Program-made: the position numbers and the translations under genes
Part shown: positions 35,153 through 40,905 of the stretch, one piece after another
Layout of the letters: each line of letters begins with the position of its first letter
How positions within the stretch are numbered: position 1 is the stretch's first letter
NCBI RefSeq assembly: GCF_900109885.1
Contig: NZ_FOBS01000005.1
Location: 62,001-126,000, forward strand
DNA from: Syntrophus gentianae
GTDB taxonomy: Bacteria; Desulfobacterota; Syntrophia; Syntrophales; Syntrophaceae
Direction: 5' to 3'
DNA: 64,000 nucleotides
The notes under the pieces: generated by a model
Database searches by the model: none
The model's input: the letters and a program-made list of their open reading frames with translations, nothing else
What the model was told of the DNA's origin: nothing

Positions 35153-35980
35153 TTGAAACAAACTCAGGCTTATCTCATGGAGAGCAATGAAGAAGCCTTT
35201 CGCCTGGAACTGAAAACCGATGTCGAAGCGGTGCGGAAACAGGCCCTCTGGTGCGGGGTAAAGGCCGGTTTACGTGTCCTGGATTTGGGATGCGGCCCCG
35301 GTAAAACCACGGAAATTCTTCATTCCATGGTGTCCCCCGCGGGAAGCGTCGTCGGCGCTGATTATTCCGCCGAACGGATTGCCTACGCTCAAGAGCATCA
35401 CGGCGGAAAGCCCGGGATTGAGTTTGTTCAGTGCGACCTGACCAAGCCCATCGAAGGGCTGGGTTTGTTTGATGTGATCTGGGTTCGATTTGTTCTTGAA
35501 TATTTTCGCAAGGAAAGTCCGGAGATTGTGAAACGGCTGCGAACACTGCTGAAGCCAGGGGGGTATCTGTGTCTCATCGATCTCGATAATAATTGTCTTG
35601 GTCATTATGAAATGCCCGAGCCCATGAACACCCTTTTGCCAAAACTGATGTCCTGTATCGATGAAGAATTCAATTTTGATACCTATGCCGGCCGCAAACT
35701 CTATTCATACCTCTATGATCAGAATTATGAAAATATTCAGGTAGAACTGATGGCCCATCACCTGATCTATGGCGAAGCCCGCCAGTCTGATGTTTTCAAC
35801 TGGTTGAAAAAGCTGGAAATCGGAACGGGGAAAATGCATTCCTTCTTCAAGGAATATCCAGGAGGGGCAGAAACCTTTCTGGAGGACTTCCGGAAGTTCT
35901 TCCTCAATCCACGACGCTTTACCTACACCCCCTTAATACTATGCAAGGGGATGCGACCTTATGACGAGGGCGTTTCCTGA
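35153..35980 (+). CDS. Class I SAM-dependent methyltransferase
   Basis: 275 residues. The SAM-binding motif VLDLGCGPG is at residues 42-50, the acidic post-II residue is in VGADYSAERIAYAQ, and motif II-like FDVIWVRFVLEYF follows, as in Methyltransf_25/UbiE-type enzymes. The substrate is unknown. The start is TTG at 35153 with AGGAGGTGAAAAT immediately upstream; the next ATG, eight codons on, has no such site. The last 22 bp overlap, tail to tail, the end of the sensor kinase gene on the other strand. Confidence 0.85.
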   Translation: MKQTQAYLMESNEEAFRLELKTDVEAVRKQALWCGVKAGLRVLDLGCGPGKTTEILHSMVSPAGSVVGADYSAERIAYAQEHHGGKPGIEFVQCDLTKPIEGLGLFDVIWVRFVLEYFRKESPEIVKRLRTLLKPGGYLCLIDLDNNCLGHYEMPEPMNTLLPKLMSCIDEEFNFDTYAGRKLYSYLYDQNYENIQVELMAHHLIYGEARQSDVFNWLKKLEIGTGKMHSFFKEYPGGAETFLEDFRKFFLNPRRFTYTPLILCKGMRPYDEGVS

Positions 35981-38817
35981 TCCAGAACGGCTCTGATTCT
36001 CTTGCTCAAAAAGTCAATTTGATAGGGTTTTTGAATAAAATCGACGGCACCGGCGCGGAGGATATCCTGCTGGCTGGTGCTGGCTGCAAAACCACTGGCG
36101 ACGATCACCTTCATAGCAGGTTCGATTTTCATTATTTCCGCAAGACATTTTTCACCCCCCATGCCGGGCATCATGAGATCCAGAATGACCAGGGCGATTT
36201 TCTCTTTTTCCCGTTGAATCACACTCAACGCCTTTTCTCCGGAATTCGCAGTCAGAACAGAATAACCCAACAGGGAAAGCAATTCATTCCCAATATCGAG
36301 AAGTGCCGGTTCGTCATCCACCAAGAGAATTGTTTCCTGTCCCTGGGATAAAACGGTTTTTTTGACCGGTTCCTGCTTTTGTTCAAGAATCTCAAGATTC
36401 GTTGCAGGAAAATAGATCTCGTAAGTCGTCCCGAGTCCAAGCTCGCTGTCGCAGAAAATGAATCCGTTATGGTTTTTGATAATGCCGTAAACAACGGACA
36501 GCCCGATTCCCGTTCCCTTGCCGGCCTCCTTCGTCGTGAAAAAGGGTTCAAAGATGTGATCGAGATTCTCCTTGGCGATACCGCATCCCGTATCGGTAAT
36601 CGTAAACAGGGCATATCGGCCGGCATCGATCTTCGCACTGCTCCGATGCTGCGTCGTCGAAAATTCTGCGTTCCTTGTTTCGATCCGGATTCTTCCCCCC
36701 TTGGGCATGGCATCTTTCGCATTGACCGTAAGATTCATGATAACCTGGCCCAATTGTGCAGCATCTCCATTGATAATATAGAGAGGTTCTGCAAGATCCA
36801 ATTCCAGTTCGATCGTTTTGGGAAGCGTGCTGATGAGAAGCTCGTAAAATTTTCGAATTTCTGCATTGATGTCGATGGGTTCAAGCTTGCTGTCGGCCTT
36901 TCTACTGAAAATGAGGAGCTGGCTGACCAGATCCGTTGCCCTCTTGATTAACTCCTTGATGGTCATGAGGTATTTCAAGTCAGGGTCGTCGTTGCTCTTG
37001 TTCATGGTCAAACGCTCGTTGTATGCGTTAATCGCTTGCAGGATATTATTGAAATCATGAGCGATACCTCCTGTCAAGCGACCGATGGCATTCATTCTCG
37101 ACGCGTGGTGAAGCTGTTGTTCCAGCTTGCGTTGCTCGGTAAAATCTTTCAGAATTCCAACAACACCCATTATTTCGCCCATCGCATTGAAATTGGGCGC
37201 ACCGCTCATATAAAACAATCGTTCTGTGCCGTCTTTGGCCAGGAGCTTGGCTTCCGTATCCTTTATTGTTTCTTTTCCCTGCTTCACGCGGTTGAATAGC
37301 CGCATGAAGGTTTCTCCATCCCCGGCCTTTGTAAATTCCGAAAAATAGCGGCCGATCATTTCTTCTGTCGAGTATCCCAGTATCTCTTCCGCAACAGGGT
37401 TTAAATACGTAATAACGCCACTATTGTCCGTGGTGTAGATAATATCGGGAGAGTTTTCACTGAGGTTTCGGAATCTTTCTTCACTTTCCGTAATCTTGCG
37501 GAGAGATTTTGCATTGTTGATACTGATCGCGATCTGCGGTGCAATGCCCATGAGCAGATTTACCTCGCTTTGGCTGTGAGGTCTGCGGGAACGGTAATTA
37601 TCAACAGCCAGGACACCTTCCGATTTTCCCTCGTAAATAATGGGAACACAGATGAAGGAATTCACAGCCAATGCATCGACGAAATCCCGGCTTCGCGCGG
37701 AGATTTCATCTTTTATATCATCAATGTCGTTCACAAAAATCGGTTTTTGCTGCCTGAAGGCAACGACGAAGGGGCCCTTGGAGTCCGGTTTGTCCAGATG
37801 AAACTGTGTTTCCTGCAATACTTTTTCAATTTCAGGGCTATAGCCGTAGCCGCTCACATAGACAAGCCTCTTTCTGTCCGGACTTGCCAGCATGATCATG
37901 CCACGGTCGAAATTGAGCCTCTTTTGCAGAGTCTCCGTGACATATTTCAAGAGGCTGTCGACATCCAGGATGTTGGATACGGCTTGACCGATCTCCTGCA
38001 CCAGGAGGGCGTTGTTATAGCTGATGGTGATCTGATCGAGAAGACGGTTGGCGGCGTCACCCTGTCTTTCTATCCTTTCATAAATGTCCTTTTTTTCCAG
38101 ATACTGGGAATAGAAGGCGATACCGACAATGACGGCGATCGCCGGCAGGGAGATGAAAGCAGCCACTTTAACGGAGGGAAACAGAAAAGTGCATATTGCG
38201 ATGACGAGGATGGAAAAAATCGCGAGATAATTTCTTCCCCGCCACCATTTCATATAGCGGGGCTCTTGCCAGCTTACGACGTACCGGCACTGCTTGTCCC
38301 CTCGATGCAGGCAGGCCGAATGCTCCAGGACCGGCAATTTACCCGTGAAGATCTCTGCGACAGCTTCGAGGCTGCCCATGCGGTTTTCACACTGGTAAGG
38401 CTTTTCACAAACGCCTTCATTTTGAGAGGTAATGATTTCTACGGCATTTCGCCGGATCTTTTTGATATGAAAGGTGGTGCCACGGTTGAGATAAGATGCG
38501 ATCTTGCCAAGCATGAAATAGGCTTGGATCGGGGAGAGAAAGGCCAGGATGAACTGTCGGATCGCCTTGGCGGACTTGGAGGACGACATAAAGCGCCCGG
38601 CTTCGCGGAATATTGTTGCATCATGCGTCCTTTCCATAAGGGCGTCATGAAATCCATCCACCTGCTTTTGCGTCAGCCAGTGTCCTTCATCCTCCAATTC
38701 ATAAGAAGAAATTCCGGAATCCTTCAGAATGCCTTCAATATCAACATCGGGCCGTTTCTGCTTCAGATATTCGAGAAACGTGATAATGACTCGGCTGTTG
38801 TACAGGTTTGCGTCCAT
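35959..38817 (-). CDS. Hybrid sensor histidine kinase (V4R-like, 2 TM, GAF, PAS, HisKA, HATPase, REC)
   Basis: 952 residues. Residues 1-185 form a sensory region ending in a V4R-like cysteine pattern (HSACLHRGDKQCRYVVSW). Two membrane segments lie at about 196-240, GAF at about 280-435, PAS at 445-565, the phospho-acceptor H587 in GGIAHDFNNIL, the N box NLTVNAKDAM (696-705), DTGCGIA (742-748), GKGTGIGLS, and a C-terminal receiver with LLVDDEP and D880 (VILDLMMPG). It resembles kinases that phosphorylate their own receiver; no output regulator is adjacent. It starts six bases after the PilZ-like gene, so the two form an operon. The V4R assignment is tentative. Confidence 0.9.
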   Translation of the reverse strand: MDANLYNSRVIITFLEYLKQKRPDVDIEGILKDSGISSYELEDEGHWLTQKQVDGFHDALMERTHDATIFREAGRFMSSSKSAKAIRQFILAFLSPIQAYFMLGKIASYLNRGTTFHIKKIRRNAVEIITSQNEGVCEKPYQCENRMGSLEAVAEIFTGKLPVLEHSACLHRGDKQCRYVVSWQEPRYMKWWRGRNYLAIFSILVIAICTFLFPSVKVAAFISLPAIAVIVGIAFYSQYLEKKDIYERIERQGDAANRLLDQITISYNNALLVQEIGQAVSNILDVDSLLKYVTETLQKRLNFDRGMIMLASPDRKRLVYVSGYGYSPEIEKVLQETQFHLDKPDSKGPFVVAFRQQKPIFVNDIDDIKDEISARSRDFVDALAVNSFICVPIIYEGKSEGVLAVDNYRSRRPHSQSEVNLLMGIAPQIAISINNAKSLRKITESEERFRNLSENSPDIIYTTDNSGVITYLNPVAEEILGYSTEEMIGRYFSEFTKAGDGETFMRLFNRVKQGKETIKDTEAKLLAKDGTERLFYMSGAPNFNAMGEIMGVVGILKDFTEQRKLEQQLHHASRMNAIGRLTGGIAHDFNNILQAINAYNERLTMNKSNDDPDLKYLMTIKELIKRATDLVSQLLIFSRKADSKLEPIDINAEIRKFYELLISTLPKTIELELDLAEPLYIINGDAAQLGQVIMNLTVNAKDAMPKGGRIRIETRNAEFSTTQHRSSAKIDAGRYALFTITDTGCGIAKENLDHIFEPFFTTKEAGKGTGIGLSVVYGIIKNHNGFIFCDSELGLGTTYEIYFPATNLEILEQKQEPVKKTVLSQGQETILLVDDEPALLDIGNELLSLLGYSVLTANSGEKALSVIQREKEKIALVILDLMMPGMGGEKCLAEIMKIEPAMKVIVASGFAASTSQQDILRAGAVDFIQKPYQIDFLSKRIRAVLDQETPSS

Positions 38818-38823
38818 CGGCCC

Positions 38824-40905
38824 CTAGGTGATGTTCATCCGGAATCTTTTCATGATATATTCTATGAATTCATTTGCATGCTGAGCATTAAGAATCCACA
38901 TGATGTAATCCTTCTCAGCATCCACATCTTTATCTTTTGTATACTCTGCAGGATAAATCAACAACGGATACGATTCCGTCGATTTGACTCGGGTAATGTT
39001 TTCAACAGCAGCCAGAATGGCATCCATCGGGGTCTCGGGATCGATCACAAAGACTTTAAAGCCATTGAGAAGATCTGACAAATTAATACCCGCATCGGAT
39101 TCTTCCTTAATGACAACAGCCTTCAGTTCGCCGGAAAAGTGCAATGCCATTGCCTGCCACTTTCTGTGCAAGCCCTGTTGCGCATAGATGTCTGCAAGAG
39201 TATGTCGCTCATGATTCTTCATATCCAGCACATCCCACAACAGTCCACCGGAATGATGCATGTAAAATTGTTCCAATTCCCACAGGTCGGAATTGGAACA
39301 TTCCTGAAGCGACCAACCTTCGGGCAACTGCGACGGCGCATCTTTTACCGTATGCGTGATATAGGAGAAAAGATCAAGGGAGCATACCCGGGGATTGGAT
39401 TTTCCCTTTGCAAAGCCTGTATATATCCTATCGGTAAACTTATTTCCAGGACGGAAATAACAAATAAAATAGTCCAGCATCGCTGACGGAAAGCGACGCA
39501 AATCATACAGATAAGAGATCATCTTTTTAAGAACGATCAGGCCGGTTGGACTTCCTTCCATGCTCCTTGCCGCATGGTGGTGAACCATCCAGGCTCTTTC
39601 ATAGGCCCGAAGCAGTGAAATATGACTGTAGATGCGCCCATCCTTCTGATAGGTGAAATGTTTGGCGATTGCAGGACAATCATTATAGAGTTTTTTATAC
39701 GTCGTCTGGAAATCTTCCCGAAAGGCCTGGATATGCTTGTATTTTGCGGGATAAATGAAATTGCTGTCAAACAGCAGGTCCCATAATTGTTCCGTGTCGA
39801 CTTCATTAATCATATCCTCATCGTCCGTGGGAACATTGTTCAATAGCTGATTCAATTTGTTGTAGTCTTCGATCCCCATATCCAGAATCGCAATTCCAAA
39901 GCGAATGGAGGATTCGTCTTTGCGGTAAACGACCTGGGCCTTGCAGGAAATCTTGAGAAGCCCGGCATAGGTAACGGTCATTTTGGGGATGATCATGCCC
40001 GGCACGAGAACCGCCGAATCGGATTTATCGCTGATGGAGAACCCGGATGTGGAAATATCGATAATTTTGCGCTGAAATGTTTTTTCCATGAAGGGATGTT
40101 CGAATATCGCCGAGAGAGACTGTAATTTCTCTTTGCGAGGATTGCGTATCATCTGCTCTTTATGCTGAGTTCCTTGAACCTGCGCAGGGCTTAAGACAAT
40201 CTCAACGCCTGACCCATTTTGCTGCTGATATATGTGCCGGCAGTTTCCTACATAAAAGACGTTATCCCCCTTAAACAGCCGGATGGTAACCGGTAAGTCG
40301 GGTTTGAACCAGTAAAAAAGAGCAGAGGATGCTGCCGCCTGAAGGCGAACTCGAAAGGCATGGGCATTGAAATTAACCAACTCGCCGCTGGCCTGAAAAC
40401 CATTTTGCATCAATTCGGCCTTTACATGATTGCATTGAAAACGTGGAACCTGTCGTTTACTGGTAACAGGACTGGATTCCGGCAACTGCATGGTTAAACC
40501 ATCATCGTTCAACGTCAGAATTCGGGGTTGAGCAAGGATGATCGACTGATCATGATTGATGACCAGATATTCAAAACGATACTTCTCCAGCTTATATCCT
40601 CGATAGGCAGGATCCCAGCGGCATACCAGTTCTTCACCCAGGCACGGCTCCGGATGGACTTTCGCCAGGATCTCTTCATCATATTGGGGATGTTTCAGGA
40701 GTGCGTAGAGAGGATCTCCCTTAAAATGGATATGGTTGAGGATGTTCGTCAGTTTTCGTTTTTTTATATACTCCCCAGACATCATGTCTCGAATCAGATC
40801 ATTATGCCTGAACAACCAGGATGGCCGATTTTCTTCCACAGGGACTCGACTTTCACATAATGCTGTATCGTTACAAATGCCTCTTTCCCCTAAATTTTCG
40901 ATCAT
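38824..40905 (-). CDS. Large PilZ-like protein with possible acyltransferase-like C-terminus
   Basis: 693 residues, no signal or membrane segments. RQVPR at residues 151-155 fits the PilZ RxxxR motif but is followed only by a degenerate partner (NFNAHAF, 178-184). A second segment carries DISTSGFSI (283-291), a proper D-x-S-x-x-G motif. The arrangement suggests two PilZ-type barrels with split or shared c-di-GMP motifs. Residues 370-693 (HIQAFREDFQTTYKKLYN... GELKAVVIKEESD) look like a GNAT-type acyltransferase fold; this is a weak inference. ATG at 40905 has GGAG upstream; the frame extends to 41001. It precedes the sensor kinase gene in the same operon. Confidence 0.6.
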   Translation of the reverse strand: MIENLGERGICNDTALCESRVPVEENRPSWLFRHNDLIRDMMSGEYIKKRKLTNILNHIHFKGDPLYALLKHPQYDEEILAKVHPEPCLGEELVCRWDPAYRGYKLEKYRFEYLVINHDQSIILAQPRILTLNDDGLTMQLPESSPVTSKRQVPRFQCNHVKAELMQNGFQASGELVNFNAHAFRVRLQAAASSALFYWFKPDLPVTIRLFKGDNVFYVGNCRHIYQQQNGSGVEIVLSPAQVQGTQHKEQMIRNPRKEKLQSLSAIFEHPFMEKTFQRKIIDISTSGFSISDKSDSAVLVPGMIIPKMTVTYAGLLKISCKAQVVYRKDESSIRFGIAILDMGIEDYNKLNQLLNNVPTDDEDMINEVDTEQLWDLLFDSNFIYPAKYKHIQAFREDFQTTYKKLYNDCPAIAKHFTYQKDGRIYSHISLLRAYERAWMVHHHAARSMEGSPTGLIVLKKMISYLYDLRRFPSAMLDYFICYFRPGNKFTDRIYTGFAKGKSNPRVCSLDLFSYITHTVKDAPSQLPEGWSLQECSNSDLWELEQFYMHHSGGLLWDVLDMKNHERHTLADIYAQQGLHRKWQAMALHFSGELKAVVIKEESDAGINLSDLLNGFKVFVIDPETPMDAILAAVENITRVKSTESYPLLIYPAEYTKDKDVDAEKDYIMWILNAQHANEFIEYIMKRFRMNIT

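Follow-up and report, generated by a model that had tools for sequence, protein, structure and literature searches.

A protein with two PilZ domains and a likely acyltransferase region forms a conserved, probable c-di-GMP effector module with an exchangeable sensor and a methyltransferase

We found that PZ, a Syntrophus gentianae effector gene encoding a 693-residue protein with two PilZ domains, belongs to a real and widely conserved module, probably a c-di-GMP effector module, together with a sensor and a methyltransferase. The PilZ anatomy of the protein, the conservation of the three genes and the repeated exchange of the output part of the sensor are what we observe. Our main reading, to which we assign a probability of roughly 0.6, is that PZ is a c-di-GMP-gated acyltransferase that is functionally tied to the methyltransferase and stands under a sensor acting via c-di-GMP breakdown or phosphorelay. 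The features of the window, by which we mean the whole stretch of 64,000 nucleotides analysed, are as follows.

35153..35980, plus strand: class I SAM methyltransferase, the convergent third gene of the module (Pfam Methyltransf_25, E 8.6e-18)
35959..38817, minus strand: sensor hybrid kinase of 952 aa, with a V4R-like N-terminus, two hydrophobic (probable transmembrane) segments, GAF, PAS, HisKA, HATPase_c and receiver
35959..37122, minus strand: exchangeable sensor output, consisting of HisKA-HATPase-receiver in the window and of HD-GYP or cyclase in relatives
38263..38817, minus strand: V4R-like N-terminal sensor domain, residues 1-185 (weak Pfam matches, invariant cysteines)
38824-40905, minus strand: effector gene PZ, 693 aa, an ORF from ATG, with YcgR-N-like domain, PilZ1, PilZ2 and GNAT-like acyltransferase region
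40462..40779, minus strand: YcgR-N-like domain of PZ, residues 43-148 (VIA-align and model)
40168..40458, minus strand: PilZ1, residues 150-246 (fold match), with RxxxR at 151-155 and a decayed second motif, NFNAHA, at 178-183
40441..40455, minus strand: RxxxR motif of PilZ1, R151-R155 (RQVPR; counted in 126 relatives)
39835..40158, minus strand: PilZ2, residues 250-357 (Pfam PilZ), with RxxR at 254-257 and DISTSG at 283-288
40042..40059, minus strand: DxSxxG motif of PilZ2, D283-G288 (counted in 126 relatives)
38827..39810, minus strand: likely C-terminal acyltransferase region, residues 366-693 (~330 aa), possibly tandem GNAT (Foldseek)
38836..39342, minus strand: GNAT-like half of that region, residues 522-690, with a conserved SDxGxNLSxLLN at 603-614 (VIA-align and conservation)

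Residues 265-355 of PZ match the Pfam PilZ model (PF07238) with an E-value of 6.3e-7 and 30.1 bits against a cut-off of 22.5, and the match is present in all 18 aligned homologs. Upstream of it, VIA-align superposed the PilZ domain of MapZ (5xly_B) on residues 153-245 (Z 9.8, 82 aligned, rmsd 2.9) and YcgR-N (5y6h) on residues ~41-150 (Z 9.3, 103 aligned, rmsd 3.4), while structural matches to VCA0042, YcgR and MrkH, spanning both domains of those proteins, cover the YcgR-N-like domain and PilZ1 of PZ. Since the fold matches run through both domains and Pfam identifies PilZ2, we conclude that the order is YcgR-N-like, PilZ1, PilZ2. The two barrels anticipated by a preceding sequence-only reading were thus both recovered when we checked for a missing one, PilZ1 by fold at a Z of about 10 and PilZ2 by Pfam. 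The full-length AlphaFold model of PZ, which like that of the C-terminus was built from 5 sequences only, is poor (mean pLDDT 44.6), with most of residues 43-246 at 60-82. Searching the PDB sequences with PZ, by phmmer and by profile, returned nothing credible; no PZ relatives were found in viral contigs and plasmids, nor did a plasmid search with one of the PixB-like relatives described below (L200) yield a match. One homolog (L187:3172-6111) is 979 aa long, its ~285 extra N-terminal residues resembling a nuclease-related domain, and in two loci (L073:1788-3868 and L081:2-2038) PZ is split into two frames, with an in-frame TGA; these may be pseudogenes or sequencing errors.

The sequence-only reading had placed an RxxxR motif at residues 151-155 and a D-x-S-x-x-G motif at 283-288 of the 693-residue protein, and both are found there, as R151-Q-V-P-R155 and D283-I-S-T-S-G288. 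It had also described their counterparts as degenerate or absent; degeneracy is indeed seen, and the wide spacing and the apparent gaps are explained by two PilZ domains, each with one modified half-motif. In PilZ1, all 126 aligned relatives keep R151 and 119 keep R155. In their second motif, Asp stands at position 178 in 109 and Ser at 180 in 80, with Ala (70) or Gly (24) at 183, so the family often has RxxxR with DxSxxA/G. The protein of the window has RxxxR with NxNxxA; having lost both Asp and Ser from its second motif (N178, N180), its PilZ1 is more degraded than is usual in the family. PilZ2 of the window combines an RxxR, shortened from RxxxR, with an intact DxSxxG; of the 126 relatives, 116 keep R254, 123 keep R257, 106 keep D283, 110 keep S285 and all keep G288. 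A complete bipartite c-di-GMP motif, that is RxxxR and (D/N)xSxxG in one barrel, is present in neither PilZ1 nor PilZ2 of this PZ. When the two domains were compared by hhalign, the DFSxxAF and DISxSGF segments were aligned at negligible probability.

Six bases (38818-38823) separate PZ from the start of the hybrid kinase at 38817, as the sequence-only reading had noted. The kinase motifs are all intact (H-box 586, N 695, G1 742, F 756, G2 768), the receiver Asp lies within LVILDLMMPG from residue 876, and the protein aligns with CckA over PAS-HisKA-HATPase-receiver at a score well below the CckA cut-off. The N-terminus had been called V4R-like, which finds weak support: Pfam V4R matched 9 of 12 homologs below threshold, with E 7e-4 at best, but the sensor of the window itself scores 14.4 bits against PF02830, below the cut-off of 31, and Arabinose_bd (AraC-type) is matched as well, in 7 of the 12 (best E 3.5e-7). 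Three cysteines of this domain, C143, C169 and C177, are invariant and could, judging from their conservation, mark a ligand or metal site.

Among 102 classed partners of PZ, the sensor ends in a kinase in 57 loci and in an HD-GYP domain in 45. In 46/46 HD-GYP partners HDxGK and HHExxxGxGYP are both intact, and Pfam HD_5 is matched with E-values down to 7e-43 (2e-42 in L048). On a FastTree tree of 126 PZ proteins, which has some long branches, the state changes between kinase and HD-GYP at least 8 times, and a PZ 60% identical to that of the window (L070) is accompanied by HD-GYP on a sensor 62% identical. Moreover, the identity of the sensor region tracks that of PZ with a Spearman coefficient of 0.78 for pairs with the same output and 0.82 for pairs with different outputs; as the identities follow one curve whatever the output, the pairing of the sensor with PZ persists through replacements of the output. 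The coupling to a phosphorelay with its own receiver, put forward earlier, finds no support as a general feature: with about 44% of classed partners carrying HD-GYP, it is lineage-specific. Individual loci add further arrangements. By sequence reading, one sensor (L162:6307-8400) ends in class III adenylate/guanylate (nucleotidyl) cyclase motifs, the only such case, and in L166 the partner combines kinase and receiver with a likely HPt. In L052:1148-8071, two paralogous sensors lie downstream of PZ on the same strand, one with kinase-receiver and one with HD-GYP, and this is possibly a locus caught carrying both outputs. The sensor of the window carries no c-di-GMP enzyme domain, and the genome of the organism has 8 GGDEF and 4 HD-GYP matches, so enzymes for c-di-GMP are present.

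These observations bear on whether the PilZ domains still read c-di-GMP, as our main reading holds, or have become a structural or protein-docking scaffold that no longer binds it, with the sensor controlling the acyltransferase by touching it directly. The decay of the second PilZ1 motif in the window, the limited retention of S180 and the RxxR of PilZ2 would suit such a scaffold, and co-variation of the sensor with PZ regardless of output fits direct contact. We nevertheless judge it unlikely, because R151, R155 and G288 are kept, 45 partners are intact-looking c-di-GMP phosphodiesterases, and, according to the available part of the report on it, the Myxococcus protein PixB still binds c-di-GMP with no Ser in either second motif (PMC8316039).

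The C-terminal region had been proposed to be acyltransferase-like, and our fold comparisons, made on a weak model, agree with this. Residues 366-693 are highly conserved among PZ homologs, with H443, S610 and N614 as near-invariant polar residues. The top of the Foldseek list, obtained with a low-confidence model, consists mostly of GNAT and tandem GNAT proteins at E-values of 1e-4 to 1e-2 (3frm, E 1e-4), and VIA-align of the C-terminal model returned almost exclusively GNATs over model residues 166-310 (best Z 7.0, rmsd 4.8, 118 aligned). The separate AlphaFold model of this region has a mean pLDDT of 44.3, its better parts falling within residues 521-650 and its first half (366-520) at about 30-40; because both AlphaFold models are poor, the GNAT assignment is based on roughly half of the region. 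As hhalign gave no alignment of the two halves, a tandem duplication stays only possible. No acyltransferase model of Pfam or NCBIfam matched among the PZ members scanned, and the conserved sequence blocks contain no obvious canonical acyl-CoA pyrophosphate loop (R/Q-x-x-G-x-G/A). In one locus (L201:4004-5809) a 331-aa protein related to the C-terminus stands alone, without PilZ, and its gene ends 3 bases before a methyltransferase gene; a second PilZ-less relative of this kind was not found in its order. From the modelled fold, we consider the C-terminus likely to be an acyltransferase. It could instead be a GNAT-like pseudoenzyme or another fold, in which case PZ would be a protein-binding effector of the YcgR kind, devoid of transferase activity, and the missing profile matches, the poorly modelled first half and a fold Z of at most 7, a range where common arrangements occur, are in keeping with this. 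Here too the chance seems small to us, for GNATs, tandem ones included, dominate both structural lists, the near-invariant H443, S610 and N614 are what an active site would be expected to show, and the C-terminus-only form stands directly before a methyltransferase gene.

Homologs of PZ occur in 30/60 near relatives, in 95/155 genomes of the class and in 45/395 genomes sampled over the phylum; with so many homologs in the class, and R151 and G288 kept in 126/126, the features of PZ are not a product of chance. The expected conservation of gene neighbours was borne out: among the 137 loci with a substantial match to PZ, 115 have a homolog of the sensor next to it, the commonest arrangement being a 4-base overlap of start and stop codons. 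Of the remaining 22, six have PZ reaching the contig edge with at most one base to spare, and in 13 the downstream sequence runs on for 1.9 kb or more without a sensor. The unit had been drawn at 35959-40905, and both of its genes are real, but the conserved unit extends to the methyltransferase at 35153-35980, which had been missed. In the window the 3' ends of the methyltransferase and kinase genes overlap by 22 bases (35959-35980). Of 86 loci with enough flanking sequence to show a methyltransferase, 60 have one nearby and 26 do not; it usually lies on the strand opposite PZ and the sensor. In eight loci (L062, L131-L135, L194 and L196) sensor, methyltransferase and PZ follow one another in this order on one strand, and in L168 and L179 PZ adjoins the methyltransferase without a sensor. 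Across the 60 relatives, the sensor is present in 30/30 PZ-positive vs 3/30 PZ-negative genomes and the methyltransferase in 23/30 vs 0/30, with Fisher p-values (9e-14 and 2e-10) that are nominal, the genomes not being independent. All three genes are missing from a single-contig genome of the same genus (G003). The other flanking genes of the window show no conservation beyond the genus, and thus the linkage of the module is not general synteny. The methyltransferase belongs to the unit of PZ and sensor. That the three are merely co-inherited neighbours, with sensor and PilZ protein in separate pathways, would accommodate the 13 loci lacking a sensor and the usual placement of the methyltransferase on the other strand, but is very improbable given that outer genes are not conserved beyond the genus, that sensor co-occurrence across genomes is near complete and that the three genes still share one strand where the locus is rearranged.

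As for how a c-di-GMP-gated acyltransferase of this kind may work, we infer c-di-GMP binding, catalysis, the substrate and the way in which control runs along the following lines. The YcgR-N-like domain and the two adjacent PilZ barrels would bind c-di-GMP, and movement induced by binding may turn the GNAT-type acyltransferase at the C-terminus on or off, as PixB and the cAMP-gated mycobacterial acetyltransferases suggest by analogy. The presumably membrane-anchored sensor would read a small molecule by its V4R-like, GAF and PAS domains. In the relatives with HD-GYP, it could set the switch directly by degrading c-di-GMP; in the lineage of the window, the phosphorelay would reach c-di-GMP or the effector indirectly, through further proteins. 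No receiver or HPt domain was matched in PZ, and therefore a direct phosphorelay from kinase to PZ is not visible; we ruled out direct phosphorylation of PZ on this ground. The methyltransferase, to judge from its linkage, may share a substrate or pathway with the acyltransferase. A role for PZ as a YcgR-type flagellar brake was also ruled out, no flagellar context being seen and an extra enzyme-like domain being present.

The methyltransferase link and the exchange of sensor outputs are new relative to the sequence-only reading, and neither was found described in the literature searched. Taken at its broadest, the picture is of one sensor that repeatedly swapped its output, between c-di-GMP phosphodiesterase, hybrid kinase and once nucleotidyl cyclase, yet stayed with the same c-di-GMP-reading acyltransferase and methyltransferase, forming an undescribed second-messenger-controlled system of acylation and methylation that is widely distributed among Syntrophales and also occurs in other Desulfobacterota; for this we would give about even odds. 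To our knowledge, few c-di-GMP effectors have enzymatic outputs beyond polysaccharide synthesis, and PixB was the only PilZ-acyltransferase found in the literature searched. With its conserved sensor and methyltransferase, the PZ family offers, in the natural swaps of phosphodiesterase and kinase, built-in experiments on effector control, and it would make directly testable whether c-di-GMP gates acyl transfer, and onto what.

Literature searches found no description combining PilZ, HD-GYP, acyltransferase and sensor in such a setting, nor V4R with HD-GYP or Syntrophus with c-di-GMP. YcgR, VCA0042 and MrkH share with PZ a YcgR-N-like (PilZN) barrel followed by a PilZ domain with an RxxxR linker; PZ goes beyond them with another PilZ and some 330 further residues, and no flagellar or DNA-binding context is seen. 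In the mycobacterial cAMP-gated acetyltransferases Rv0998/MSMEG_5458 the messenger is bound by a cyclic-nucleotide-binding domain, not by PilZ as proposed for PZ, and we know of no sensor or methyltransferase partner for them. Like PZ on our reading, they fuse a second-messenger domain to a GNAT, as set out in the available part of a report on PixB (PMC8316039). PixB (MXAN_2604) of Myxococcus xanthus, compared here by description only, is the closest known protein: in it a GNAT-type acyltransferase comes after two PilZ domains, and it has imperfect second PilZ motifs and a proposed gating by c-di-GMP; PZ shares the paired PilZ domains and the imperfect motifs, and probably also the GNAT part and the gating. 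According to that same part of the report, it binds c-di-GMP in vitro, all of its domains are required in development, and the authors suggest that acyl transfer is stimulated by c-di-GMP (PMC8316039). The RxxxR arginines are 210 residues apart in PixB as there described (R121, R331) vs about 100 in PZ (R151, R254/R257), and that portion of the text names no partner of the kinase, HD-GYP or methyltransferase kind for PixB (PMC8316039), whereas PZ has sensor and methyltransferase. Two distant PZ relatives (L199 and L200) combine a PixB-like PilZ spacing of 222 residues with a C-terminus related to that of PZ, which suggests, so far as sequence and the published description of PixB can tell, common descent of PixB and PZ. 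The genes for these long relatives (L199:2616-7215 and L200:1564-6133) adjoin genes resembling B12-binding radical SAM proteins. Finally, the outputs of the sensors are like those of CckA-type kinases and canonical HD_5/HD-GYP proteins, but here both are carried by the same V4R-like/GAF sensor beside the same effector.
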